NCBI GenBank assembly: GCA_944388385.1
Contig: CALXIO010000001.1
Span: 124,001 to 188,000, forward strand
Direction of reading: 5' to 3'
Source of the DNA: an uncultured Ruminiclostridium sp.
Lineage (GTDB): Bacteria; Bacillota; Clostridia; Oscillospirales; Ruminococcaceae
DNA length: 64,000 nt
Below are positions 16,462 through 57,307 of the stretch, piece after piece. Below the pieces are notes generated by a model. The model saw nothing but the letters and a program-made list of their open reading frames with translations, ran no database searches and was not told the origin of the DNA. The first letter of the stretch is position 1. Every line of letters starts with the position of its first letter. The position numbers and the translations under genes are program-made.

Positions 16462-17853
16462 TTATGATTGCTTGCTTAAAAATTCGTCAATGCTCTTAGC
16501 CGCCTGCTTACCTGCACCCATGGCAAGAATAACAGTAGCCGCACCTGTAACAGCATCACCGCCGGCATAAACGCCCTCACGGGTAGTCTGCATGGTGTCC
16601 TCATTAACAATAAGGCAACCCTTTCTGTTTGTGTCAAGACCGGGAGTTGTGGAACGAATAAGGGGGTTAGGTGAAGTACCGATTGACATAATAACTGTAT
16701 CAACAGGTAACTCAAAGTTACTGCCCTCTTTTACAATAGGTCTGCGACGGCCGCTGTCATCAGGCTCGCCCAGTTCCATTTCAACACATTCAATAGCTTT
16801 AACTCTGCCCTGTTCGTCACCGATGATCTTAACGGGGTTGTTAAGGTTCTTGAAGATAATGCCCTCCTCCATGGCGTGGTGGATTTCTTCCTTACGGGCA
16901 GGCATTTCCTCCATACCTCTTCTGTATACTATGTACACATTTTCAGCACCAAGTCTTTTAGCACATCTTGCCGCATCCATAGCTACGTTACCGCCGCCTA
17001 CAACTGCAACAGACTTGCTTTCGATAATAGGTGTGTCGTAATCATCAAGGTAAGCCTTCATAAGGTTTGTTCTTGTAAGATACTCATTAGCGGAGTAAAC
17101 ACCAACAAGATCCTCACCGGGAATTCCCATAAATGAGGGAAGACCTGCACCTGAGCCGATAAAGATAGCCTTATAGCCCATTTCAAAAAGCTCATCTACT
17201 GATAATACACGGCCGATAACCATGTTTGTCTTTATCTCAACACCCATAGCCTCAAGGTTTTCAATTTCCTTCTTAACTATGGCCTTGGGAAGTCTGAATT
17301 CGGGGATACCGTAAACAAGTACGCCGCCTGCTGTATGGAAGGCTTCAAAGATAGTAACCTCATAGCCCTTCTTAGCAAGATCTCCTGCACAGGTAAGACC
17401 TGCAGGACCGCCGCCGATAACTGCTACCTTCTTGCCGTTGCTTTCGGGCTTTGAAGGCTTTTCTGTGCTGTGCTCATTGTGGTAGTCTGCACAGAAGCGC
17501 TCAAGACGGCCGATAGAAACACTCTCGCCCTTGATACCTCTTACGCACTTGCCCTCGCACTGATTTTCCTGGGGACATACTCTGCCGCATACAGCAGGAA
17601 GTCCGTTTGTGCTGGTGATGATTTCATAAGCCTCTTCAAACTTGCCCTCAGCTACCTTTGCAATAAACTCAGGAATTCTTACATTAACAGGACAGCCTGC
17701 AACACAGGGCTTATTTTTACAATTAAGGCAACGTGCCGCCTCTTCCATAGCCATTTCAGCTGTATAGCCGGTAGCTACCTCTAAAAAGTTCTTATTTCTG
17801 ACATTGGGGTCCTGCTGAGGCATGGGCACCTTGGTCATAGACATATTAGGCAT
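16462..17853 (-). CDS. nfnB: NfnB-type NADPH oxidoreductase subunit (GltA-like)
   Basis: This is the large subunit of the NADH-dependent reduced ferredoxin:NADP+ oxidoreductase, a flavin-based electron-bifurcating enzyme. It resembles glutamate synthase small subunit, and annotation pipelines often call it gltA. The 463-residue protein has an N-terminal twin 4Fe-4S region (CLNCKNKPCVAGCP, CGRVCPQENQCEGKC), then an FAD motif VIGGGPAGLTCAG and an NADPH motif VVGGGNVAMDAARCAKR, ending GAATVILAMGAGKQAA. I used the ATG at 17853 with GAAAGGA upstream; an in-frame start at 17904 would add residues foreign to the family. Assignment to Nfn rather than glutamate synthase rests on the adjacent nfnA. Confidence 0.9.
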   Translation of the reverse strand: MPNMSMTKVPMPQQDPNVRNKNFLEVATGYTAEMAMEEAARCLNCKNKPCVAGCPVNVRIPEFIAKVAEGKFEEAYEIITSTNGLPAVCGRVCPQENQCEGKCVRGIKGESVSIGRLERFCADYHNEHSTEKPSKPESNGKKVAVIGGGPAGLTCAGDLAKKGYEVTIFEAFHTAGGVLVYGIPEFRLPKAIVKKEIENLEAMGVEIKTNMVIGRVLSVDELFEMGYKAIFIGSGAGLPSFMGIPGEDLVGVYSANEYLTRTNLMKAYLDDYDTPIIESKSVAVVGGGNVAMDAARCAKRLGAENVYIVYRRGMEEMPARKEEIHHAMEEGIIFKNLNNPVKIIGDEQGRVKAIECVEMELGEPDDSGRRRPIVKEGSNFELPVDTVIMSIGTSPNPLIRSTTPGLDTNRKGCLIVNEDTMQTTREGVYAGGDAVTGAATVILAMGAGKQAAKSIDEFLSKQS

Positions 17854-17879
17854 TTTATTTTCATCCTTTCGGTATATTA

Positions 17880-18713
17880 TTAAAGACCCTGATAAAGTCT
17901 GCAATGGGACTTATCATGTGATTCCTTTTCCTTATATGTGGAGTTACGCTTCATAAGCTCATCAAAGTTTACAAGATGACCGTCAAAGTCAGGACCGTCA
18001 ACACAGGCAAACTTAATTTCTCCGCCTACAGATACACGACAACCGCCGCACATACCTGTACCGTCTATCATAATGGGATTTAAGGATACAAGTGTCTTTA
18101 TACCGTAGGGTCTTGTAACCTCGCATACAAACTTCATCATAGGAACAGGGCCGATAGCCACAACAAGATCATACTTGTTTCCTGCATCAATAAGTGACTG
18201 GAGCTTGTTTGTTACAAAGCCCTTTTCACCGTATGTGCCGTCATCTGTGGTAATATAGAGGTTTGTGCTTGCGGCCTTGAATTCATCCTCAAGAATAACA
18301 ATATCCTTACTTCTGAAGCCGGCAATAACATCAACCTCAGCGCCTGAATTAAACATCTGCTTTGCTGAAGGGTATGCAATGGCACAACCAACACCGCCGC
18401 CGATAACACAGACCTTCTTTGCACCCTCAAAGTCTGTAGCCTTGCCTAAAGGTCCTACAAAGTCAAGAAGTGCATCACCCTCTTTAAGCTGGGATAAAAG
18501 CATTGTAGTCTGTCCTACTATCTGGAAGATGATAGTTACTGTTCCCTTTTCTCTGTCATAGTCTGCAATAGTCAGAGGGATTCTCTCTCCGTGCTCATCT
18601 ACACGAAGAATTATGAACTGACCGGCAAGAGCCTTTTTTGCAATAAACGGAGCATGAATTTCCATTAAAACAACATTTTCATTGAGCTGGCGTCTTTTAA
18701 GAATTTTGTACAT
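17880..18713 (-). CDS. nfnA: NfnA-type ferredoxin-NADP+ reductase subunit alpha
   Basis: This is the small subunit of the Nfn complex (also described as sulfide dehydrogenase subunit beta or SudB). It carries an FAD and a 2Fe-2S cluster and handles NADH. The 277-residue sequence shows the FAD domain (GQFIILRVDEHGERIPLTI), the nucleotide motif VIGGGVGCAIAYP and the C-terminal cysteine set GTGMCGGCRVSV plus FACVDGPDF. A short tail (about 30 residues, CRLYQGL at the end) extends beyond the usual end. It is first in a two-gene minus-strand operon, 26 bp before the nfnB start. Role: balancing NADH, NADPH and ferredoxin in fermentation. Confidence 0.9.
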   Translation of the reverse strand: MYKILKRRQLNENVVLMEIHAPFIAKKALAGQFIILRVDEHGERIPLTIADYDREKGTVTIIFQIVGQTTMLLSQLKEGDALLDFVGPLGKATDFEGAKKVCVIGGGVGCAIAYPSAKQMFNSGAEVDVIAGFRSKDIVILEDEFKAASTNLYITTDDGTYGEKGFVTNKLQSLIDAGNKYDLVVAIGPVPMMKFVCEVTRPYGIKTLVSLNPIMIDGTGMCGGCRVSVGGEIKFACVDGPDFDGHLVNFDELMKRNSTYKEKESHDKSHCRLYQGL

Positions 18714-22638: not shown

Positions 22639-22667
22639 TTGACAATTATAGCTATTTATAGTATAAT
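22639..22667 (+). promoter_or_regulatory. Consensus promoter of the glycosyltransferase operon
   Basis: TTGACA (22639-22644), 17 bp, TATAAT (22662-22667). It leaves a leader of about 43 nt before the ATG at 22717 (AGGAGG Shine-Dalgarno). Confidence 0.9.
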
Positions 22668-22716: not shown

Positions 22717-25017
22717 ATGAGCGAAATGTTATCATCACAAGCGAAAAATACCCCTAAATTATCAATAGTTGTACCATGCTGTAATGTGGAAAAGTATCTT
22801 GATCAGTGTCTTTCCAGCATAGTAAACCAGACACTTAAAGAAATAGAGATAATCTGCATAAATGACGGCTCTAAGGACGGAACATTAGGTATTATAAAAT
22901 CCTATGCCGCAAAGGATGACAGAATAGTTATCCTTGACAAGCCCAACAGCGGTTACGGAGATTCCATGAACAAGGGCTTTAATATGGCTAACGGCGAATA
23001 TATCGGTATAGTTGAAAGTGATGACTTCATTGAGCCTGATATGTTCAGAACTCTTTATGAAACCGCAAAGCAGTTTGATGCGGATGTGGTAAAGTCAAAC
23101 TTCTGGTTTTACTGGAGCAACCCTGAGAAAAATGAGCTTCACGAATATTTCAAGCGTAAGGAATGCGGAAAGGTAATCTGTCCCCGTGAATACGACGGAG
23201 GCTCACTTTTCGGAAGAAAGCCCTCCATATGGTCAGCGATCTATAAGAAATCCTTTATAAGGGAGAAGAATATAGGCTTTTTACCCACCCCCGGCGCATC
23301 CTTCCAGGATACCTCATTTACCTTTAAGGTATACTCAAGCGCAGAGAGAATGGTATGTCTTTATGACGCATTTTTACATTACAGACAGGATAATGAAAAT
23401 TCCTCTGTAAATAATGCGGACAAGAAGGCTTATTGCATTTGCGATGAATATAACGAGATAAAGAAGTATATCCTTGAACATGAGGATATGGCAGATGATC
23501 TGTATCCTATTTACGGTGCGGCATTTTATGACACCTGTATCTGGATGTATGAGCGTTTAAGCCCGGAAAAGAGAAGAACATATATATTTGAAATGTCACA
23601 GTGGTTTTCTGAGCTTTTGGATGAATGTGATATTGAAAGCCTTGATTTCGGTGAGGCATGGTGGAAATCAAGGGATATGCTTCGTATTGTGGATGATCCC
23701 CTTGAGTATCATGTATGGAGAAACACCGAGCGTTATAAACAGGGCGAAGATAAAATAAAGTATGATATTACCTCAATCCCCCTTAATAATTTAGCTGATG
23801 TATTAAAAAAGCAACAGGCTAAGGAGCATAAGCCCATGTTCTCCGTTATTATGCCTGTATATAACTGTGAAAAGTTTTTACAGTCTGCCTATGACAGCCT
23901 TGCTTTACAGACCATGGAAGATTTTGAGGTTATCTGTATAAATGACGGCTCAAAGGATCACTCCCTTTCTGTACTTGAAAAGCTGGCAAAGCAGGATGAA
24001 AGAATAGTTATTATAAACAAGCCCAACGAAGGCCCTGCAAAGGCAAGAAATGTAGGTATTGAAGCGGCTATAGGTCAGTATATCATTTTCCTTGATTCAG
24101 ATGACTATTATGATATACACACCTGTGAGAGATTAAGCGAGGAAATATCCTCAGCTAAGAAATTTGATGCAATAGTATTCGGCGGAAATATTTTCCCGGA
24201 GGTACCAAGAGCCTCAGACTGGCTTTATGATGTACTTACCACACCTAATGCCTATTATGAGAAGATAACCGAAAAGGATATGCTCACCGAAAAGTATTTC
24301 AAGGTATATAGCTGGAGAGTATGCTTTAACGCTGAATTTATAAAGAAAAACAAGCTCGGCTTTAACCCGGACTTCAAGTACGGCGAGGACGCCTTGTTTA
24401 TGTTTGATGCCCTTACAAAAATGGAGGGTGTACTTGTAATTTCCGATAAGCTGTATAATTACCGTCATTATAACCCCGATTCACTTATGAACGGTATGTA
24501 CAGACAGCCTGAAAAATACGCAAATGAACAGCTCAGAATATTAAGACAGCTTCTTACTGTGGCAAAGGAGGACGGAATAAAGCCCTCTGCTGAGCTTTTA
24601 CAGTATTCCTGTGATTTTATATTCAGTGCGGTGGATAACTGTCCTATGCCTGCTAAGCTGGAGATCATGCGTTCTCTTATAGCACTTCTGAAGGAATTTG
24701 AATTGTACGATTGTGTAGATGAAGCTACATCAAACTGCCGTGGATTTATAGAATACTGTAACAATGAGCTTGAAAACAGCCATACCTCTTATTCCTTATC
24801 AAGCAAATTCAAAACCTCAATGCTGAAGATAGTACCTCCCTCAAGATATGTATATTACGATAATACAACAAAATTGATAAATCAGATTGCGGCACAGCAA
24901 AGAAGCCTTGATGCCCTTCAAAGACAGGTGGCAGAGCTTAAAACCATGATAAAGAATATGAGCAACGGCACACCTGAAAAGAAAAAATACGGAAAGAATA
25001 AAAATAAGAAATTCTGA
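22717..25017 (+). CDS. Tandem-domain GT2 glycosyltransferase
   Basis: This is a 766-residue cytoplasmic protein with two family 2 (GT-A) glycosyltransferase domains. The first starts near residue 16 (LSIVVPCCNVEKYLDQCL, CINDGSKDGTL, IVESDDF as the DxD-type site). The second starts near 373 (FSVIMPVYNCEKFL, CINDGSKDHSL, FLDSDDYYD). A short predicted coiled coil (about 710-745, IAAQQRSLDALQRQVAELK) and a Lys-rich tail end the protein. GT2 enzymes transfer sugars from nucleotide donors during capsule, teichoic or exopolysaccharide synthesis; donor and acceptor are unknown. It is the paralogue of the first about 700 residues of the next gene, 38 bp downstream, so the pair arose by tandem duplication. 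Confidence 0.9.
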   Translation: MSEMLSSQAKNTPKLSIVVPCCNVEKYLDQCLSSIVNQTLKEIEIICINDGSKDGTLGIIKSYAAKDDRIVILDKPNSGYGDSMNKGFNMANGEYIGIVESDDFIEPDMFRTLYETAKQFDADVVKSNFWFYWSNPEKNELHEYFKRKECGKVICPREYDGGSLFGRKPSIWSAIYKKSFIREKNIGFLPTPGASFQDTSFTFKVYSSAERMVCLYDAFLHYRQDNENSSVNNADKKAYCICDEYNEIKKYILEHEDMADDLYPIYGAAFYDTCIWMYERLSPEKRRTYIFEMSQWFSELLDECDIESLDFGEAWWKSRDMLRIVDDPLEYHVWRNTERYKQGEDKIKYDITSIPLNNLADVLKKQQAKEHKPMFSVIMPVYNCEKFLQSAYDSLALQTMEDFEVICINDGSKDHSLSVLEKLAKQDERIVIINKPNEGPAKARNVGIEAAIGQYIIFLDSDDYYDIHTCERLSEEISSAKKFDAIVFGGNIFPEVPRASDWLYDVLTTPNAYYEKITEKDMLTEKYFKVYSWRVCFNAEFIKKNKLGFNPDFKYGEDALFMFDALTKMEGVLVISDKLYNYRHYNPDSLMNGMYRQPEKYANEQLRILRQLLTVAKEDGIKPSAELLQYSCDFIFSAVDNCPMPAKLEIMRSLIALLKEFELYDCVDEATSNCRGFIEYCNNELENSHTSYSLSSKFKTSMLKIVPPSRYVYYDNTTKLINQIAAQQRSLDALQRQVAELKTMIKNMSNGTPEKKKYGKNKNKKF

Positions 25018-25055
25018 TAAAAGCAAACGACATGGTATTTCCCCGGAGGTGCGGT

Positions 25056-28000
25056 ATGGACAATAAAGAAACAGCGATAAAGGTATCCATAGTAGTACCC
25101 TGCTGTAATGTGGAAAAATATCTGGATAAATGCCTTTCAAGTATCATAGACCAGACCCTTAACGAAATAGAAATAATCTGTATAAATGACGGCTCAACTG
25201 ACGGCACCCTTGATATAATAAGGTACTATGGCGCAAGGGATAGCAGAATAGTTGTCCTTGATAAGGAAAACAGCGGCTACGGGGATTCCATGAACAAGGG
25301 CTTTGCCATGGCAAAGGGCGAATATATCGGCATAGTTGAAAGTGATGACTTTATTGACCCGGATATGTTCAGAGCCCTTTACGAAACCGCCATAGAAAAT
25401 GATGCGGATGTGGTAAAGTCAAATTTCTTCTTCTACTGGGGAGAAAGCGATAAAAATGAGCTTCATGAATACTTCAGAAAAGAGGAATGCGGCAGGATTA
25501 TATGCCCCAGAGTTTATGACAACGGTTCTCTTTTCACAAGGAAGCCCTCTATCTGGTCTTCCATATATAAGGCGGATTTTATAAGGAAAAACAATATCGG
25601 ATTTTTACCCAGCCCGGGAGCATCCTACCAGGATACCGCCTTTATCTTTAAGGTATATTCCACCGCCAATGTAATGGTGGCTGTTTATGATGCCTATTTA
25701 CATTACAGACAGGATAATGCCGGCTCATCTGTAAACAATGCCCATAAGAAAATGCACTGTATAGCAGATGAATACGGGGAGATAAGAGAATTTCTGAACA
25801 AGGAAAATTGCGACAGGGAAGCTCTGTACCCCATATATGCCGCCGCATATTATGACGCTTGTATATGGATGTATGAGCTTTTAGCCCATAAATACCGCCG
25901 TGAATTTCTGTTTATTATGTCACGGCAGATGAAACAGCTTTTATCTGAAATAAATGTAAAGAGAATAGGCTTCGGCGGTTGCTGGTGGAAATTCAGGGAT
26001 ATAGTAAGAATTGCAAATGACCCTGTTGAATATCACATCTGGCGTGATGTGGAGCGTTATGAACAAATAGGAAATACCTTTGAATATAAGGATACCACAA
26101 CCCCGAATAACAATATAGAGCAGGTTATTGAAGCACAGAATAACAAGGCAGAAAAGCCCCTGTTTTCGGTTATTATACCTGTATATAACAATGAAAAATA
26201 TATAGCCGCCTGTCTTGACAGCCTTTTATTAAATGAATACAAAAACGCAGAGTTTATCTGTATAAATGACGGCTCAGAAGATCATTCCCTTAATATACTT
26301 GAATATTTTGCCGAGAATGATGACAGGGTAGTTATTATAAATCAGGATAATGCCGGTCAGTCTGCCGCAAAAAATGCAGGTATAAAAGCGGCACAGGGAA
26401 AATATATAATGTTCCTTGACGGGGACGATTATTACAATCCGGGTATATTTGAAAGACTGGAAAAGGAAATAAGCCGTAATGATGATGTTATAATATACGG
26501 CGGAAAGGTATCACCTCAGTCTGCTAACACCGGTTGGTATGAAAGAGTTCTTAAAACTGATGACAGGTATTATGAAAAGGTCAGCGACAAGGAGCTGTTC
26601 TCCATACCCTATCTGAGGGTTCATAGTGTAAGAAGCTGTTTAAAACGCAGCTTTGTTGAAGAAAAGGGACTTTTGTTTGACCCGGATGCAAAATACGGAG
26701 AAGATGCTATATTTATGATTCAGCTTCTTCTTTCCGCAACGGGCGTGTCGGTAATTTCCGATATTATGTATAATTATCGTGTAAATAATCCGGCTTCTCT
26801 TATGAACTCACTTTTTTCCGATAAAGGCAATTTTGCAATACAGCAACAGATAATACTTGAAAAAATTGTAGATATATTAAGACGGCTTGACATAAAGTCC
26901 TCTAAGGAATTTATTGAATTTGCCTGTGATTTTGTATTTGCAAGTATAGATAATGCCCCTGAGCCTGCAAGAACAGAAAGCATACTTAAGCTTGTTGATA
27001 CCTTAAGTAATTTTGGTTACGAAGCGTTTGTTGATGAACTTTCTGATAATTGCAGGGGATTTTGGGAATATTGCCTTTCTGTGGCAACAGAAAAGACTCC
27101 TGAGGAAAATAAGACTGCCGAAGAAAATTTCCCGGAGATACAGCAGTCTGCTGAAGAAAAGCCTGTAACAATACAAAAGAAGGACGAGGAAAAGAAAATT
27201 TCTTTAGAAAAGGAAACTAAAACAATGGATAAAAAGCATTATGATGTAGGTATAGTAGGCTGGTGGTTTGCCTCTAATTACGGCAGTGCCCTCACATACT
27301 ATGCCCTTGGTAAAATACTTGAGGAAAAGGGACTTAGCTCAGTTATGCTAAGCGTATCAAAGCTTAACCGCACCCCCTGGGAGCCTACTACCAAAAAGGC
27401 CAGAGACTTTATCTCAAAGTATTTCCCCACAACCCCCGAAATACCCTACGAGCGCAACACAGAATATAATGATTTATGCGATGCTTTCATGCTTGGCTCT
27501 GACCAGCTATGGACAAAGTGGGCTTGCGAATTTCTGGGATATACCTTCTTTCTGGATTTTGCAGAGCCTACAAAGAGAAAGATTGCCTATGCCACCTCCC
27601 TTGGCAAGGCGGGTATTGATATAGGGGAAAAGGATAAGAAGGCAATTCACTCTTTGCTTTCTACCTTTGATTATATTTCTGTTCGTGAGGAGTCCGGCAT
27701 ACAGGTATGCAAGGATGCCTTTAATATTGACGTTAAGCGTGACTTAGACCCGGTATTTTTGTGTGACAGAAAGCATTATGACGCCCTTGCGGACAGCTGT
27801 GAGGGGCTTGAGCCGGATGACAACTTTGTATTCAGCTATATTCTTGATGTAAACGAGGAAAAGCAAAAGGCGGTACAGTATGCGGCGGACAAGATAGGCG
27901 CAAGAGTAATTTCCGTTCTTGATATTAAGCTTGTTGACAGGCAAAAGGATAACTGGCACGTGGGTACTTTGAAGCCGGATTGCTCAATAGAGGAGTTTAT

Positions 28001-29957
28001 CTACTACATCAAGCATTGTAAGCTGATGGTAACCGACTCCCACCACGGTGCTTGCTTTGCTATGCTTTTCCACAGGAATTTTATCACCATAGCAAATGCC
28101 GGAAGAGGTCTTACCAGATTTACAAATCTGTTTAACATTTTCCGTCTTAATGACAAGCTGCTTGCAGAACCTGAGGAAATATACAAGAAGAAAAATATTT
28201 TCGATCCCATAAATTATGATAAATTTGAGGAGATACTTGCAAAGGAAAAGGCAAACAGCTTTGAAAGATTTAACAATGCTCTTACCTGTGATATTTCCTA
28301 TAAGGAAGATCTTTTTGTAAATGAGAACGATAAAAGGAAAAGAATAATGAATTCTGTTGCAGAAAGCTTTCCCGGATGTATAGTAGGACATCTTAGATAT
28401 GATCAATGTATGGGATGCGGTGCCTGTGTAAGTACCTGCCCGGTGGACGCTCTTTCATTAAAGCCGGATGGCTACGGTTATTACAGGGCTACCCTTGATA
28501 ACAGCAAGTGTATAAACTGCGGCAAATGCACAAAGGTCTGCCCTTCGTATAATATTTCTGAAAAAACCAACAGCGAAAACCCCGAGCTTTATGTATTTTC
28601 GGCAAAAAGCAACGATTTACTTGCAAAAAGCTCCAGCGGTGGTGTATTTTCACTCCTTGCACAGCAGATCCTTGACAAAAACGGTGTTGTAGTAGGTGCG
28701 GCATGGAGTGAGGACTATATGTCTGTAAGCCATATTATGGTGGATAATAAAAATGACTTAGAGAAGCTGAGAAAATCTAAGTATCTTCAGAGCTACATGG
28801 GAGATACCTTCAGAAAGGTAAAGGAAAAGCTGGATAAGGGCACTCCTGTATTATTCTCCGGCTGTTCATGTCAGGCGGCAGGGCTGAGATCCTACTTGGG
28901 ACGGGATTATGACAACCTTTATGTTGTGGATATTCTTTGTGCCAATGCTCCCTCACAGAAGTATTTCGAGGAATATATCAAGGACAGCTTCCCGGAGGGA
29001 ATAAAGAAATACGAATTTCGTGACAAGACAGCAAACTGGCAGGTAAGCTGTAATTGTGTTGCCGTTACCCGTAAAAACGGAAAGACAGAGCATTTCAACG
29101 GCGGAGGCCAGGATAAATATCAATGGATGTTCCATCCCCATATTATGTGCGCTCCCCATTGTGAAAACTGTAAATATCAGAGTATTCCCAGATACGGCGA
29201 TATTACCCTTGGGGACTTCTGGGGCATAGATAAAAAGATAAAGGAATATGATTTTACAAAGGGCGCATCTGCCGTTCTTTGCAACAATGAAAAGGGTAAG
29301 GCCTTATTTGAGGGTATTTCCGACAAGGATATAGGCTTCAAAAAGAAAACTCCCCTTGAATGGTTGGGCGGAAACGGTTATGCGGTTATGGGACATAACA
29401 GCGCATCCCCCTACAGAGATGCCTTTGCTGAGGCTATAAAGAAGGGCAAGAGCTTTACTGAGGCTACTGAGGATGCTATGAACAGCAGATATATAGATGC
29501 AAGAAATAAGTTTTACCAAACCTTATCTCCCTTGCAGTTTGATTCAAAGCAGCAGTTGTTTAATATTAATTATGAAGACTGGAGCCAGAGTATAGTTGAC
29601 GGCAGAATATTGCTTATTCCTAAGGATACTTTCCCTTTAGGGGGAAAATTTGCAAGTCTTCCCTTAAACAAGCGTCTTGAAAAGGGTAAACGCTACAGAA
29701 TATATCTGAGATTTAAGGTAAAAACCAACAGTAAGCTGGTAAACTTCCACTTAAAGCAGAGTAATACCTCATTTTTCAGGATAATACAAAGCTATACGGT
29801 AAGACCCATAGATAATCAGGAATGGGTAAATCTTTCCTTTGAATATGTACCTCAGTTTGATGTGTTTGATGAATTTATGATAGGTGCGGCGCAAACCAAC
29901 GGCAACGGAAAATTTATACTTTTTGACTCTATTTATATCACCGAGGTAGATGAATAA
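25056..29957 (+). CDS. Giant GT2-GT2-pyruvyltransferase-ferredoxin-FrhB fusion
   Basis: This is a 1633-residue cytoplasmic multi-enzyme. Domains in order: GT2 at about 9-230 (VSIVVPCCNVEKYL, VESDDF); GT2 at about 366-600 (FSVIIPVYNNEKYI, FLDGDDYY); a charged linker at about 690-724; a polysaccharide pyruvyl transferase (PS_pyruv_trans, as in CsaB) at about 727-1060 (VGIVGWWFASNYGSALTYY, LGSDQLW, DSHHGACFAM); two 4Fe-4S motifs at about 1118-1165 (CMGCGACVSTCP, CINCGKCTKVCP); an FrhB/FdhB-like domain at about 1190-1450 (SSSGGVFSLLAQQ, GCSCQAAGLRSYL, DITLGDFWGI); and a beta-rich tail at about 1490-1633 resembling a carbohydrate-binding jelly roll. The start is the ATG at 25056 with GGAGG upstream. 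Likely role: building and pyruvylating a surface glycan, with an unknown redox step. Confidence 0.85.
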   Translation: MDNKETAIKVSIVVPCCNVEKYLDKCLSSIIDQTLNEIEIICINDGSTDGTLDIIRYYGARDSRIVVLDKENSGYGDSMNKGFAMAKGEYIGIVESDDFIDPDMFRALYETAIENDADVVKSNFFFYWGESDKNELHEYFRKEECGRIICPRVYDNGSLFTRKPSIWSSIYKADFIRKNNIGFLPSPGASYQDTAFIFKVYSTANVMVAVYDAYLHYRQDNAGSSVNNAHKKMHCIADEYGEIREFLNKENCDREALYPIYAAAYYDACIWMYELLAHKYRREFLFIMSRQMKQLLSEINVKRIGFGGCWWKFRDIVRIANDPVEYHIWRDVERYEQIGNTFEYKDTTTPNNNIEQVIEAQNNKAEKPLFSVIIPVYNNEKYIAACLDSLLLNEYKNAEFICINDGSEDHSLNILEYFAENDDRVVIINQDNAGQSAAKNAGIKAAQGKYIMFLDGDDYYNPGIFERLEKEISRNDDVIIYGGKVSPQSANTGWYERVLKTDDRYYEKVSDKELFSIPYLRVHSVRSCLKRSFVEEKGLLFDPDAKYGEDAIFMIQLLLSATGVSVISDIMYNYRVNNPASLMNSLFSDKGNFAIQQQIILEKIVDILRRLDIKSSKEFIEFACDFVFASIDNAPEPARTESILKLVDTLSNFGYEAFVDELSDNCRGFWEYCLSVATEKTPEENKTAEENFPEIQQSAEEKPVTIQKKDEEKKISLEKETKTMDKKHYDVGIVGWWFASNYGSALTYYALGKILEEKGLSSVMLSVSKLNRTPWEPTTKKARDFISKYFPTTPEIPYERNTEYNDLCDAFMLGSDQLWTKWACEFLGYTFFLDFAEPTKRKIAYATSLGKAGIDIGEKDKKAIHSLLSTFDYISVREESGIQVCKDAFNIDVKRDLDPVFLCDRKHYDALADSCEGLEPDDNFVFSYILDVNEEKQKAVQYAADKIGARVISVLDIKLVDRQKDNWHVGTLKPDCSIEEFIYYIKHCKLMVTDSHHGACFAMLFHRNFITIANAGRGLTRFTNLFNIFRLNDKLLAEPEEIYKKKNIFDPINYDKFEEILAKEKANSFERFNNALTCDISYKEDLFVNENDKRKRIMNSVAESFPGCIVGHLRYDQCMGCGACVSTCPVDALSLKPDGYGYYRATLDNSKCINCGKCTKVCPSYNISEKTNSENPELYVFSAKSNDLLAKSSSGGVFSLLAQQILDKNGVVVGAAWSEDYMSVSHIMVDNKNDLEKLRKSKYLQSYMGDTFRKVKEKLDKGTPVLFSGCSCQAAGLRSYLGRDYDNLYVVDILCANAPSQKYFEEYIKDSFPEGIKKYEFRDKTANWQVSCNCVAVTRKNGKTEHFNGGGQDKYQWMFHPHIMCAPHCENCKYQSIPRYGDITLGDFWGIDKKIKEYDFTKGASAVLCNNEKGKALFEGISDKDIGFKKKTPLEWLGGNGYAVMGHNSASPYRDAFAEAIKKGKSFTEATEDAMNSRYIDARNKFYQTLSPLQFDSKQQLFNINYEDWSQSIVDGRILLIPKDTFPLGGKFASLPLNKRLEKGKRYRIYLRFKVKTNSKLVNFHLKQSNTSFFRIIQSYTVRPIDNQEWVNLSFEYVPQFDVFDEFMIGAAQTNGNGKFILFDSIYITEVDE

Positions 29958-29960
29958 AAA

Positions 29961-29992
29961 AATCCCCCTTTAAAAGGGGGATTATTTTTTAT
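29961..29992. terminator. Terminator after the glycosyltransferase operon
   Basis: AATCCCCCTT (29961-29970) and AAGGGGGATT (29974-29983), with an A run before and ATTTTTT after, so it can serve both strands. Confidence 0.9.
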
Positions 29993-29994
29993 AT

Positions 29995-30267
29995 TTATTC
30001 TAAATTGTCATCCTTATCGTCGCTCTTTTGGTTAAGTATAACAGCTACTGTAATGATAGCCGCCGCTACAACACCGCCGCCTATTGTAATTGTGAGAAGC
30101 TGGGGCATAGCGTCGCTTTCCTCTGTGGTATTCTGCATTACATTGTCCACAAGCTGCTGGGCTGAGCTGCCGTTTTCTGTGGGTGAAAGTGCCGCACAAG
30201 GTAAAGCCATAAGTGTAAGTGCTGCTATACTTGCCAATATTTTTGTAACTAAAGCTTTGATTTTCAT
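29995..30267 (-). CDS. Small exported single-pass membrane protein
   Basis: This is a 90-residue protein that I do not recognise. It has a signal peptide (MKIKALVTKILASIAALTLMALPCAA), about 35 polar extracytoplasmic residues, one membrane span (QLLTITIGGGVVAAAIITVAVIL) and an acidic cytoplasmic tail NQKSDDKDDNLE. The start is the ATG at 30267 behind GAGAGGGATGG; an in-frame extension to 30285 is unlikely. It has no LPXTG motif. It is monocistronic between a terminator and the asnB end, so neighbours do not suggest a role. Confidence 0.7.
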   Translation of the reverse strand: MKIKALVTKILASIAALTLMALPCAALSPTENGSSAQQLVDNVMQNTTEESDAMPQLLTITIGGGVVAAAIITVAVILNQKSDDKDDNLE

Positions 30268-30433
30268 AAATACCATCCCTCTCATAATTTTTTAAACAAT
30301 TTTCCTTAATTTTATTATACCAATAGGAAAATATTTGTCAATATGTTTTAAGAAAATGTTACCAAATTGTTACCAAATTGTTATCATTCTGTAATCTTTT
30401 GCTTAATTCTATGGGGTTTTGCACCCTGTTATG

Positions 30434-53029: not shown

Positions 53030-56000
53030 TTAATTCTCTGAGATTGCCGAATATTTATCCTTAAGCTCTACGCCCTTATTTTCCTCCTCGGTGGGAAGAG
53101 TGTTTATCTGTCTGAATGCCTGGGAGAGCATAAGCTTTATTCTGTTTATCTGATTTACTTCGGATGCACCGGGGTCATAGTCAACCGCAATAATATTTGA
53201 CTGGGGATTGCGGCGGCGCAATTCACCGATTATGCCCTTGCCGGTAACGTGGTTAGGCAGACAAGCAAAGGGCTGCATACAGATAATGTTATTTACACCG
53301 CTGTGGATAAGCTCTATCATTTCCGCAGATAAGAACCAGCCCTCGCCGGCAATATTACCGGTGGAAACTATACCGTCAACCAGTCTTCTCATTTCGGAAA
53401 TCTTCATAAATGAGCCGAACTTTGTACCCTCTATTGCATCCTTGTAGGATTTTTCCATACGCTCAATAAAGCTGATTGCCACATTACTGAAATAGTGGCG
53501 CTTGCCGGACACGGTAAGTAATTCATGACGGGAATTAGCATGGTCGCAGATATAGTAGATAAAGCCCATAAGATCCGGAACTACCGCCTCAGCGCCCTCG
53601 GATTCCACAAGATCAACAGCAAAGTTATTTGCGGCAGGGTGGTATTTAACCAAAATCTCGCCTACTATACCTACCCTCGGCTTTACTATATCAAGGCAGG
53701 GAATAGAGTCAAAGTCCTTTACTATTGCTCTTACATTCTTATTGAACTTAACAATAGACAGGCTCTTTATATCCTCCCTTAATTTCTTATTCCACTTTTC
53801 ATACATGGCATTGGCGGCACCCTTTTGAGCCTCATAGGGTCTTACCCTGTAAAGGCAACGGCTGAGTACATCGCCGTAAATTACCGCCATAAATGCACGA
53901 AGGGCAAGGGGAAGGGTGAGCTTAAAGCCGGGCTGCTTTTCCATACCTACTACATTAAGGGAAATAAGGGGTATCTGATTAAGTCCTGCATCCTTCAGCG
54001 CCTTTTTAAGCATACCTACATAGTTTGTGGCACGACAAGCACCACCGGTCTGGGTAATAAGCACCGCCACCTTATCCTTGTCATACTTTCCGCTGTTTAT
54101 GGCATATAAAAGCTGACCTATTGTGATAATGGCAGGATAGCAAGCATCATTGTTTACATATTTAAGACCCTCGTCCACAACTTCCTTTGAGTAGTTTTTC
54201 TGTATCTCAATATTATATCCGCAGAAACGGAACGCCGCCTCTAATATCTCAAAGTGAATGGGTGACATCTGGGGAGCTATAATTGTATAATCCTTCTTCA
54301 TTTCCTTTGTGAACTTAGGCTGGGGCTTATATCCGCTGTACTTTACAACGGGACGGATACCGTTACGCTCTCTTTCCTCCATAACGGAGATAAGTGAACG
54401 AAGTCTTATTCTTGCGGCACCAAGGTTATTTACTTCATCTATTTTAAGTACGGTGTACATTCTGCCGTAGCCCTGGAGTATCTCCTGTACCTCATCGGTG
54501 GTGATAGCGTCAAGACCACAGCCGAAGCTGTTTAACTGCACCAGCTCAAGCTGGGGTGTCTGACCCACAAGGGTAGCCGCCGCATAAAGTCTTGTGTGGT
54601 ACATCCATTGGTCTACTACACGGATAGGACGAACTACATTACCAAGGTGTGCTATGCTGTCCTCGGTAAGCACCGCAAAGCCGTAGCTGTTTATCATCTC
54701 GGGAATACCGTGGTTTATTTCCGGGTCAACGTGGTAGGGTCTGCCTGCAAGAACAATACCCTTCTTGCCGGTTTCCTTCAGCATACGAAGAACATCCTCA
54801 CCCTTAGAACGCACATCATCCTTAAAGTGTCTGTCCTCTGCATACGCCGCCTTTAAGGCAATACCTATTTCCTCACCGCCTATACCAAGGGGCTCAAATT
54901 CCTCTATAAGTCTTTCAAGCATTCTGTCCTCATCGTAAATAGGCAGGAAGGGATTCATAAAGGTGATACCCTCCTCACGAAGCTCAGGAACTGAATTCTT
55001 GATAACCTCACTATAGGTAGCAACAACAGGGCAGTTGTAGTGGTTGTCACCGTGACCGCCGTTATCCATTTCGTAGGGAAGTGAGGGGTAGAATATAAAC
55101 TTTACACCCTCATCAAGTAAGGACATAATATGACCGTGGGACAGCTTAGCCGGATAGCATACCGATTCTGAGGGCATTGTTTCAATACCTCTGTCATAAA
55201 TTTCCCTTGAGGATTTGGGGGATAACTTTACGCTGTAGCCGAGCTTTGTAAAGAAGGTGAACCAGAAGGGGTAGTTTTCGTACATACCGAGAACTCTGGG
55301 AAGACCCACAACACCTCTTTTAGCCTCACTTTCAGGTAAGGGCTGATAGTCAAAAAGTCTTTTGTACTTATAGTCAAAGAGATTGGGAAGTCCCGAGCCC
55401 TTGCTTTGCATACCTGCACCACGCTCACAGCGGTTATTGGTAATATATCTTGTACCGTCATTGAAACGGCTTATGGTAAGCAGACAGTTATTTGAACATC
55501 TGCCGCATCTTGCGGTGGTTTTTGTAATTTCAAAATCATTCAGCTTATCCGCAGTAGCTAAGGTACTGCCCTTGCCGTCATCCCTTTCAAGAGCCACAAG
55601 AGCACTTCCGTAAGCACCCATAAGGCCTGCCTTATCCGGGCGCACTACCTCTCTGCCGCAGGTAAGCTCAAAGGCACGGAGTACCGAGTCATTAAGGAAG
55701 GTACCGCCCTGAACTATTATCTTTTCGCCCATGGCCTTGGGATCTCTTATCTTTATAACCTTGAAAAGGGCATTCTTTACAACAGAATAGGAAAGACCTG
55801 CGGAAATATCCGCTACGCTTGCCCCTTCCTTCTGAGCCTGCTTTACACGGCTGTTCATAAATACCGTACAGCGTGAGCCTAAGTCAACGGGGCTTTTTGA
55901 AGTAAGACCTATCTTTGCAAATTCCTCTGACTGCATACCAAGGGCATTGGCAAAGTTCTGTATAAATGAGCCACATCCGGAGGAACAAGCCTCATTTAAG

Positions 56001-57307
56001 AGAATGCTTTCAATTTCTCCGTCCTTTACCCTCATACACTTCATATCCTGACCGCCTATGTCAAGGATAAATTCAACACCGGGTAAAATACGCTGGGCGG
56101 CCTTGTAGTGAGCCATTGTTTCAATTTCGCCGAAATCCGCTTTAAGGGCGGCCTTGATAAGATGCTCGCCATAGCCTGTGGCGGTAGCCTTAGCTATGTA
56201 TGCACCCTCGGGAAGCTTTGAATATATATCCGTTAAAATGCCTATTACAGACTTTAAGGGGTCACCCATGTTATTGCCGTAGTGGGAGTATAAAATATCC
56301 CCCTCCTTGCTTATAAGTACCGCCTTTGTGGTGGTAGAGCCGGCATCCACACCTAAGTAGCAGGGACCCTTGTATTCGGATAAATCCTTTACCGGAATAA
56401 CCGCCTTTGAGTGACGGTCCTTAAATTCCTTTAATTCCTCCTCGTTATTGAAAAGGGGAGCAAGTCTTTCCACCTCGTGTACTTCAACGGTGGACAGCTT
56501 GGAAATATTTGCCTTTAATTCCTTTACGTTTACTTCCTCTCTGTTGTCCGCAAGGGAAGCACCCATGGCAACAAAAAGGTTAGCATCCGGAGGGAATACT
56601 ATATGCTCGTCATCCAGCTCAAGTGTTTCTATAAAGCGCTTACGAAGCTCAGACAGATAGTGGAGAGGGCCGCCTAAGAAGGCAACATGACCTCTTATGG
56701 GCTTACCGCAGGCAAGTCCGCTTATTGTCTGGTTTACCACCGACTGGAAGATAGAAGCGGCAACGTCGCTTTTCTTTGCGCCGTCGTTTAAAAGGGGCTG
56801 AATATCACTTTTTGCAAATACGCCGCAACGGGATGCTATGGGGTAAATTGTGGTATATTCCTTAGCAAGCTCGTTTAATCCTGTAATATCTGTATTTAAA
56901 AGGGAAGCCATCTGATCGATAAACGCACCTGTACCGCCTGCACAGGAGCCGTTCATTCTCTGCTCGATACCGCCGGTAAGGTAGGTGATTTTCGCATCCT
57001 CGCCTCCAAGCTCAATAGCCACATCAGTCTGGGGAATAAAGCTTTCAATAGCGGTAGTTCCGGCTGAAACCTCCTGCACAAAGGGAATACCAAGCCAGCC
57101 TGAAACAGAGATACCGCCGGAGCCGGTAACGGCGATAGTTACCTTTTCGTCATTTATGGTGTCAAGACAGCCACCAAGTACCTCAGCGATTGTTTTCTTT
57201 ATATCTGAGTAATGTCTTTGGTAGTTTTTGTATATGACATTTTTTGAATCGTCAAGAACGGCGATTTTAACCGTTGTTGAGCCAACATCAAGTCCTATAT
57301 GAAGCAT
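53030..57307 (-). CDS. 2-hydroxyacyl-CoA dehydratase activase-like fusion protein
   Basis: This is a 1425-residue protein of the large acyl-CoA dehydratase activase-related family. It contains two ASKHA ATPase (BadF/HgdC-like) domains, at about 1-260 ([20 protein letters not shown] near 122) and about 315-590 ([18 protein letters not shown] near 442). A cysteine motif [11 protein letters not shown] and a DUF2229 region (about 640-900) come next. A C-terminal HgdB-like part (about 1000-1425) closes with a Cys-rich [16 protein letters not shown]. Activases of this type pass an electron to dehydratases at the cost of ATP and bind a 4Fe-4S cluster. In the fused form the substrate is unknown. No hydroxyacyl-CoA dehydratase genes lie nearby. 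Confidence 0.88.

Follow-up and report, generated by a model that had tools for sequence, protein, structure and literature searches.

A glycosyltransferase-pyruvyltransferase-FrhB fusion protein of an uncultured Ruminiclostridium sp. and a probable reductive route to glycan lactyl ethers

The DNA considered here (the window, 64,000 nucleotides from an uncultured Ruminiclostridium sp.) carries a two-gene operon whose first gene encodes a GT2-GT2 protein and whose second gene encodes a much larger fusion protein beginning with a paralogue of it. The fusion gene is one uninterrupted frame with no internal stop codon. The features of the operon are as follows:

22639-22667, + strand: predicted promoter of the sigma-70 type, TTGACA-17-TATAAT, 12 of 12 positions (consensus match only)
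22717-25017, + strand: upstream GT2-GT2 gene, 766 residues (Pfam and pairwise comparison)
25045-25050, + strand: ribosome-binding site GGAGGT, a perfect match just upstream of the ATG at 25056
25056-29957, + strand: fusion gene, 1633 residues, with an alternative in-frame ATG at 25032
25056-26090, + strand: first GT2 domain, residues ~1-345 (Pfam Glycos_transf_2)
26151-27155, + strand: second GT2 domain, residues ~366-700 (Pfam Glycos_transf_2)
27078-27236, + strand: charged E/K-rich linker, residues ~675-727, with an in-frame ATG at 27225 (sequence)
27276-28097, + strand: PS_pyruv_trans (PT) domain, residues 741-1014, GT-B-like fold, TDSHHG and NYGS (Pfam, fold match, motifs)
28380-28580, + strand: two ferredoxin-type 4Fe-4S clusters, residues ~1109-1175 (Fer4-type dicluster, Pfam and cysteines)
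28596-29327, + strand: FrhB_FdhB N- and C-terminal domains, residues 1181-1424, with SSGG, DITLGDFWG and four core cysteines (Pfam, fold match)
29523-29954, + strand: predicted CBM-like C-terminal beta-sandwich, residues ~1490-1633 (AlphaFold2 model and Foldseek)
29961-29983, + strand: terminator-like strong hairpin directly after the fusion stop codon (sequence)

All Pfam domain calls on the fusion lie above the curated family cut-offs. Glycos_transf_2 (PF00535) occurs twice (whole-protein E 7.8e-69), and SDD and DGDD motifs can be recognised by eye in the sequence. PS_pyruv_trans (PF04230) scores 105.6 bits against a cut-off of 25.3 (5.6e-30). The two FrhB_FdhB families (PF04422 and PF04432) match at residues 1181-1248 (N, 27.6 bits) and 1265-1424 (C, 61.2 bits, 1.4e-16), and this part contains DITLGDFWGI. 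The ligands of the ferredoxin-type clusters, C1118, C1121, C1124 and C1128 and C1152, C1155, C1158 and C1162, form two CxxCxxCxxxCP motifs. The E/K-rich linker connects the GT2-GT2 part with the PT-FrhB-tail part. No Pfam family matches the C-terminal ~145 residues. AlphaFold2, run on residues 728-1633 (mean pLDDT 86.1, pTM 0.57), folds them into an all-beta sandwich, for which Foldseek returns a carbohydrate-binding module (4mgs, E 4.7e-6, TMt 0.70). The tail is thus predicted to be CBM-like, with putative ligand binding, and the pTM of 0.57 leaves the relative placement of the domains open. The modelled PT domain has a GT-B fold with structural matches to GT4, TagF and UDP-GlcNAc 2-epimerase, and a PDB sequence search with this domain gave no match. 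Both the single 1633-residue GT2-GT2-PT-ferredoxin-FrhB chain and the beta-rich, jelly-roll-like tail proposed in the initial annotation are borne out by these data.

Four of the ten GT2 matches in the genome fall within the operon, in which no flippase, polymerase, initiating transferase or nucleotide-sugar gene is found. The neighbours are housekeeping genes (pyrimidine, glutamate synthase-like, sugar-ABC and asparagine synthase genes). Because of these neighbours and the missing assembly genes, the region was rejected as a capsule locus, and the "mini capsule pathway" once suggested for it is not upheld. Between the operon and the asparagine synthase gene lies a gene for a 96-residue protein (29995-30285, - strand) with a signal-peptide-like start, a possible membrane segment and a 12/12 promoter-like site at 30341-30314. 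A 1425-residue protein with a CoA-dehydratase-activase (CoA_E_activ) domain is encoded further along the window (53030-57307, - strand).

PT and FrhB_C each have exactly two matches in the genome, and these form two single-chain pairs in opposite orders. The second is an FrhB-PT protein of 752 residues (contig 17, L005:10423-12678), 34-38% identical to its counterpart in the fusion; its gene adjoins fucose isomerase, kinase, aldolase and reductase-like genes and is not in a glycan cluster. Among 119 genomes of the family, 25 of the 32 FrhB_C matches are fused to a PT or have one on the same strand within 5 kb, the chance expectation being ~0.0025 for each, and the earlier remark that the two are often neighbours holds. 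The other seven have no PT nearby, and for several of these a PT lies on another contig. A second sample, 80 loci of named genomes, was chosen by similarity to the PT/FrhB pair and is therefore enriched for it; its single chains comprise 36 FrhB-PT, 14 PT-FrhB and 8 PT-FrhB-tail proteins, besides multi-copy chains. Fusion in both orders is classical evidence for two domains acting together. This Rosetta-stone pairing in sequence data makes it most likely that the redox domain serves the pyruvyltransferase. In E. coli plasmid clusters, a nitroreductase takes the place of FrhB beside the PT; the constant of the pairing thus appears to be a redox partner, not the FrhB fold. One E. coli plasmid, pBDSF8-3_3 (L136:4739-12661), carries an FrhB-PT pair in tandem with a nitroreductase-PT pair that is truncated, flanked by transposases and a Wzc fragment, that is, glycan genes on a small mobile plasmid. 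The FrhB-PT DNA of a Klebsiella aerogenes plasmid, used as a query, found no match in E. coli.

The FrhB part has four core cysteines (C1272, C1295, C1369 and C1372 in the fusion) that are invariant in 161 of 161 FrhB domains and suggest a third 4Fe-4S cluster. Foldseek matches of the AlphaFold2 model include FrhB, F420-dependent sulfite reductase and 7-hydroxymethyl chlorophyll a reductase (HCAR, 5dqr). HCAR strips a hydroxyl oxygen from a chlorophyll precursor independently of F420 and is a precedent for reductive C-O chemistry. F420 was rejected as the electron donor since no F420 synthase (CofH) scores above the cut-off in this 99.98% complete genome; E. coli, a bearer of the same PT/FrhB pair, is not known to make F420 either. 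Ferredoxin would be the likeliest electron source. An NfnAB-like gene pair (a glutamate synthase beta-type and an FAD/NAD-binding subunit) is present in the window (16462-18713, - strand); as a possible source of ferredoxin for the fusion it is suggestive only.

The PT domain differs from the known ketal enzymes at its presumed active site. Ketal pyruvyltransferases have NxGD, an Arg and a His in common, and R337-L338-H339 of Pvg1p touch phosphoenolpyruvate (PEP) in a published model (PMC10629545, PMC6801904). WcaK has NRGD and GTRLH. In the fusion, S744 stands at the Asp position of NxGD (NYGS), and S995/H997 in TDSHHG give SxH for RxH, while the PEP-site residues H997 and R877 of the ketal enzymes are retained. 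The initial annotation had named a lack of conserved catalytic residues as grounds for doubt; half of this is seen, the His and one Arg being kept and the NxGD Asp and the RxH Arg replaced. The same pattern runs through 108 FrhB-fused PTs. None has the NxGD Asp (S, A, G or N is found instead) or RxH (SxH in 102, TxH in 3), and the other Arg (R877) and the His (H997) are retained in 107 and 105, respectively; the positions of H997, R877 and Asp816 are nearly invariant. The variant recurs in the PT of E. coli O124, in the Klebsiella plasmid PT and in a nitroreductase-linked PT. Searched with a profile built from window-type PTs, the O124 PT scores 8e-82 and the nitroreductase-linked PT 3e-85, with the Klebsiella plasmid PT in the same range; the profile does not match WcaK at E<10, and it picked up no PT in the stretch of S. 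meliloti pSymB chosen to supply a known ketal PT. From the variant residues and this profile separation, the reductase-linked PTs constitute a subfamily of their own, and their residues would be consistent with attachment via one oxygen, not two. Since SxH is also present in 7 of 12 PTs with no FrhB inside the retrieved locus, the motif alone is no proof of a reductase partner; such PTs may have other partners, or a partner beyond the retrieved stretch.

We consider it likely, as judged from sequence comparisons, that the PT and FrhB domains together carry out a reductive pyruvylation that yields an O-(1-carboxyethyl), or lactyl, ether within a glycan-assembling chain. Such an ether results when a sugar-bound pyruvyl unit takes up two electrons. 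For the fusion we infer the following chemistry, electron donor, flavin, sugar and role of the tail. The PT domain would move the three-carbon unit of PEP onto one sugar hydroxyl to give an enolpyruvyl ether, or a transient ketal or oxocarbenium. The FrhB domain, as a flavin enzyme wired via the 4Fe-4S clusters, would then reduce this unit to ether-linked lactic acid, probably with ferredoxin rather than F420 as the electron source. All four GT2 domains in the operon would make or lengthen the acceptor, and the CBM-like tail might keep hold of the growing glycan. The initial annotation had let FrhB reduce a "ketal-linked" intermediate; its action on the PT product is retained, but the likely end product is a lactyl ether rather than a pyruvate ketal, and the loss of pyruvate from surface glycans, then put forward as a check, is probably the wrong change to look for. 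Literature searches on FrhB with pyruvyl and polysaccharide and on genes of lactyl-ether biosynthesis returned no paper, nor any biochemistry on a PT-FrhB pair.

The lactyl-ether hypothesis was in hand before the O-antigen cluster of E. coli O124/O164 was looked at. In five genomes this cluster reads galF-wzx-FrhB-PT-GT2-GT32-wzy-GT2-glf-GT2-gnd, and it holds no gene besides FrhB-PT that is likely to install a lactyl ether. We take the O124/O164 antigen to be the counterpart of that of Shigella dysenteriae type 3, carrying 4-O-[(R)-1-carboxyethyl]-D-glucose; E. coli O58 is a further lactyl serotype. O124 and O164 have one common cluster sequence (PMC4732683), O124 is listed with those enteroinvasive E. 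coli (EIEC) antigens that have an identical Shigella counterpart (PMC5723341), and a S. dysenteriae O-antigen is reported to contain 4-O-[(R)-1-carboxyethyl]-D-glucose (PMC10609480). The O124 FrhB retains the matching core cysteines. It is a distant relative of the FrhB in the window, with different N-terminal clusters, which leaves room for a different substrate or product in Clostridia.

Klebsiella capsules offer a second comparison of genotype and structure. According to PMC4616057, a PT gene occurs in only four of 46 types that have no pyruvylation, namely K8, K22, K37 and K66. In a table of 79 K-antigens, O-lactyl groups are listed only for K22 and K37 (GlcA-Olac) and K66 (Glc-Olac), and K8 has a pyruvyl sugar (PMC6856556); we read "O-lactose" in the running text of that paper as O-lactyl. 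By our own arithmetic on the published tables, three given types would all be among four of 46 by chance with a probability of 2.6e-4. The title of the K22 structure paper, as cited in PMC3857182, names 4-O-[(S)-1-carboxyethyl]-D-glucuronic acid. PMC4616057 also counts exactly two genes for a nitroreductase and one for a "coenzyme F420 hydrogenase" in 79 Klebsiella clusters. An assignment of the two nitroreductases to K22 and K37, whose cps regions are indistinguishable, and of the single FrhB to K66 would fit. This agreement between genes and structures holds for the relatives (O124/O164 and K22/K37/K66), not for the organism of the window.

These comparisons bear on the alternative that the PT domain forms an ordinary 4,6- or 3,4-pyruvate ketal and that FrhB acts on that glycan in a redox step of its own, such as the reduction of a keto-sugar. 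PS_pyruv_trans is named for ketal enzymes, the Pfam match is strong and the PEP site retains His997 and Arg877. However, the NxGD Asp and the RxH Arg are gone throughout the linked PTs; the pair is present in O124/O164, whose Shigella counterpart contains lactyl glucose; K22, K37 and K66 have a PT gene and no ketal; and a keto-sugar gene that regularly accompanies the PT/FrhB pair was not seen. We regard this alternative as improbable.

It is slightly less probable still that a misassembly or a frameshift artefact has created the 1633-residue chain by joining a GT2-GT2 gene to a PT-FrhB-tail gene. Such a reading would affect nothing but the GT2 joint, and the lactyl-ether explanation could still hold for the rest. 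PT-FrhB-tail does exist as a free-standing gene of about 875-1065 residues in the same genus (L097, 875; L125, 1019; L126, 900; L127, 890), where the tail is also C-terminal to stand-alone FrhB proteins (L099, L100 and L128); neither the GT2-GT2/PT joint nor the exact five-part order was seen in the other genomes examined, and an in-frame ATG lies at the joint. Yet the joint contains no stop codon or change of frame, its charged linker resembles an interdomain linker, and GT2 is fused to the pair elsewhere in two other arrangements, GT2-FrhB-PT (1449 residues) and FrhB-PT-GT2 (1399 residues). The PT-FrhB joint is hard to ascribe to an artefact, given the dozens of single chains of both orders in other genomes. 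The upstream GT2-GT2 protein is 56% identical to the N-terminal part of the fusion over 668 residues, and the fusion therefore resembles a GT2-GT2 duplicate coupled via the charged linker to a PT-FrhB-tail gene. Finally, that the PT is a glycosyltransferase-like enzyme with another donor, and FrhB an electron relay or an enzyme that reduces the acceptor sugar or its nucleotide, agrees with the GT-B fold, its matches and the divergent PEP-site residues, but is quite unlikely, as it gives no account of why FrhB-PT or PT plus nitroreductase tracks lactyl ethers in enterobacterial glycans and the positions of His997, Arg877 and Asp816 are still nearly invariant.

The proposed formation of a lactyl ether can be set beside several known systems. 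The ketal PTs (WcaK, CsaB, WbbZ and Pvg1p; PF04230) share with the fusion the Pfam family, a GT-B-like fold, the His and one Arg, whereas fusion-type PTs have SxH for RxH, no NxGD Asp and usually a redox partner, with WcaK outside their profile. The E. coli O124/O164 system resembles the fusion in its FrhB beside a PT of the same profile, SxH and the FrhB core cysteines; it differs in having separate genes in a full Wzx/Wzy cluster, with no glycosyltransferase fusion and no tail, and one recognisable N-terminal cluster in FrhB instead of two. HCAR and the FrhB/FpoF family have the FrhB fold with FAD and 4Fe-4S, but act on other substrates and are not associated with a pyruvyltransferase. The same net chemistry as that proposed here is known from MurA/MurB, which attaches the three-carbon unit of PEP and then reduces it to the O-lactyl ether of muramic acid, although with unrelated folds, on UDP-GlcNAc and in peptidoglycan synthesis. 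On balance, we lean towards the view that PS_pyruv_trans comprises two chemically distinct classes, and that the widespread SxH class, typically with a flavin reductase of the FrhB or nitroreductase type as its partner, provides a MurA/MurB-independent route to O-lactyl ethers in gut Clostridia and other phyla, here fused with glycosyltransferases in an assembly-line protein.

Lactyl ethers are present in many bacterial surface glycans, both O-antigens and capsules. If the proposal is true, it would give a joint function to two abundant, vaguely named families, which go by "polysaccharide pyruvyl transferase" and by "coenzyme F420 hydrogenase beta subunit", the latter name being in use in organisms without F420. 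Many glycan clusters labelled as pyruvylated could then be relabelled as lactylated, with a change in the predicted glycan structure. The two substituents can be distinguished by mass, at +72 Da for a lactyl ether vs. +70 Da for a ketal.

Some further arrangements of these domains were observed. In the same genus, a 926-residue protein (L099:196-2973) has a PT fused to the N-terminal domain of a TPP enzyme and is encoded two genes before an FrhB-tail gene; the unit added by this protein could be a different 2-keto acid. A chain of 1992 residues, also of this genus (L101:10192-16167), continues from PT-FrhB into a hexapeptide region and two short-chain dehydrogenases. Chains of ~1780 residues (L144:6003-11363 and L198:6036-11363) repeat PT and FrhB as PT-FrhB-PT-FrhB-PT and similar orders.
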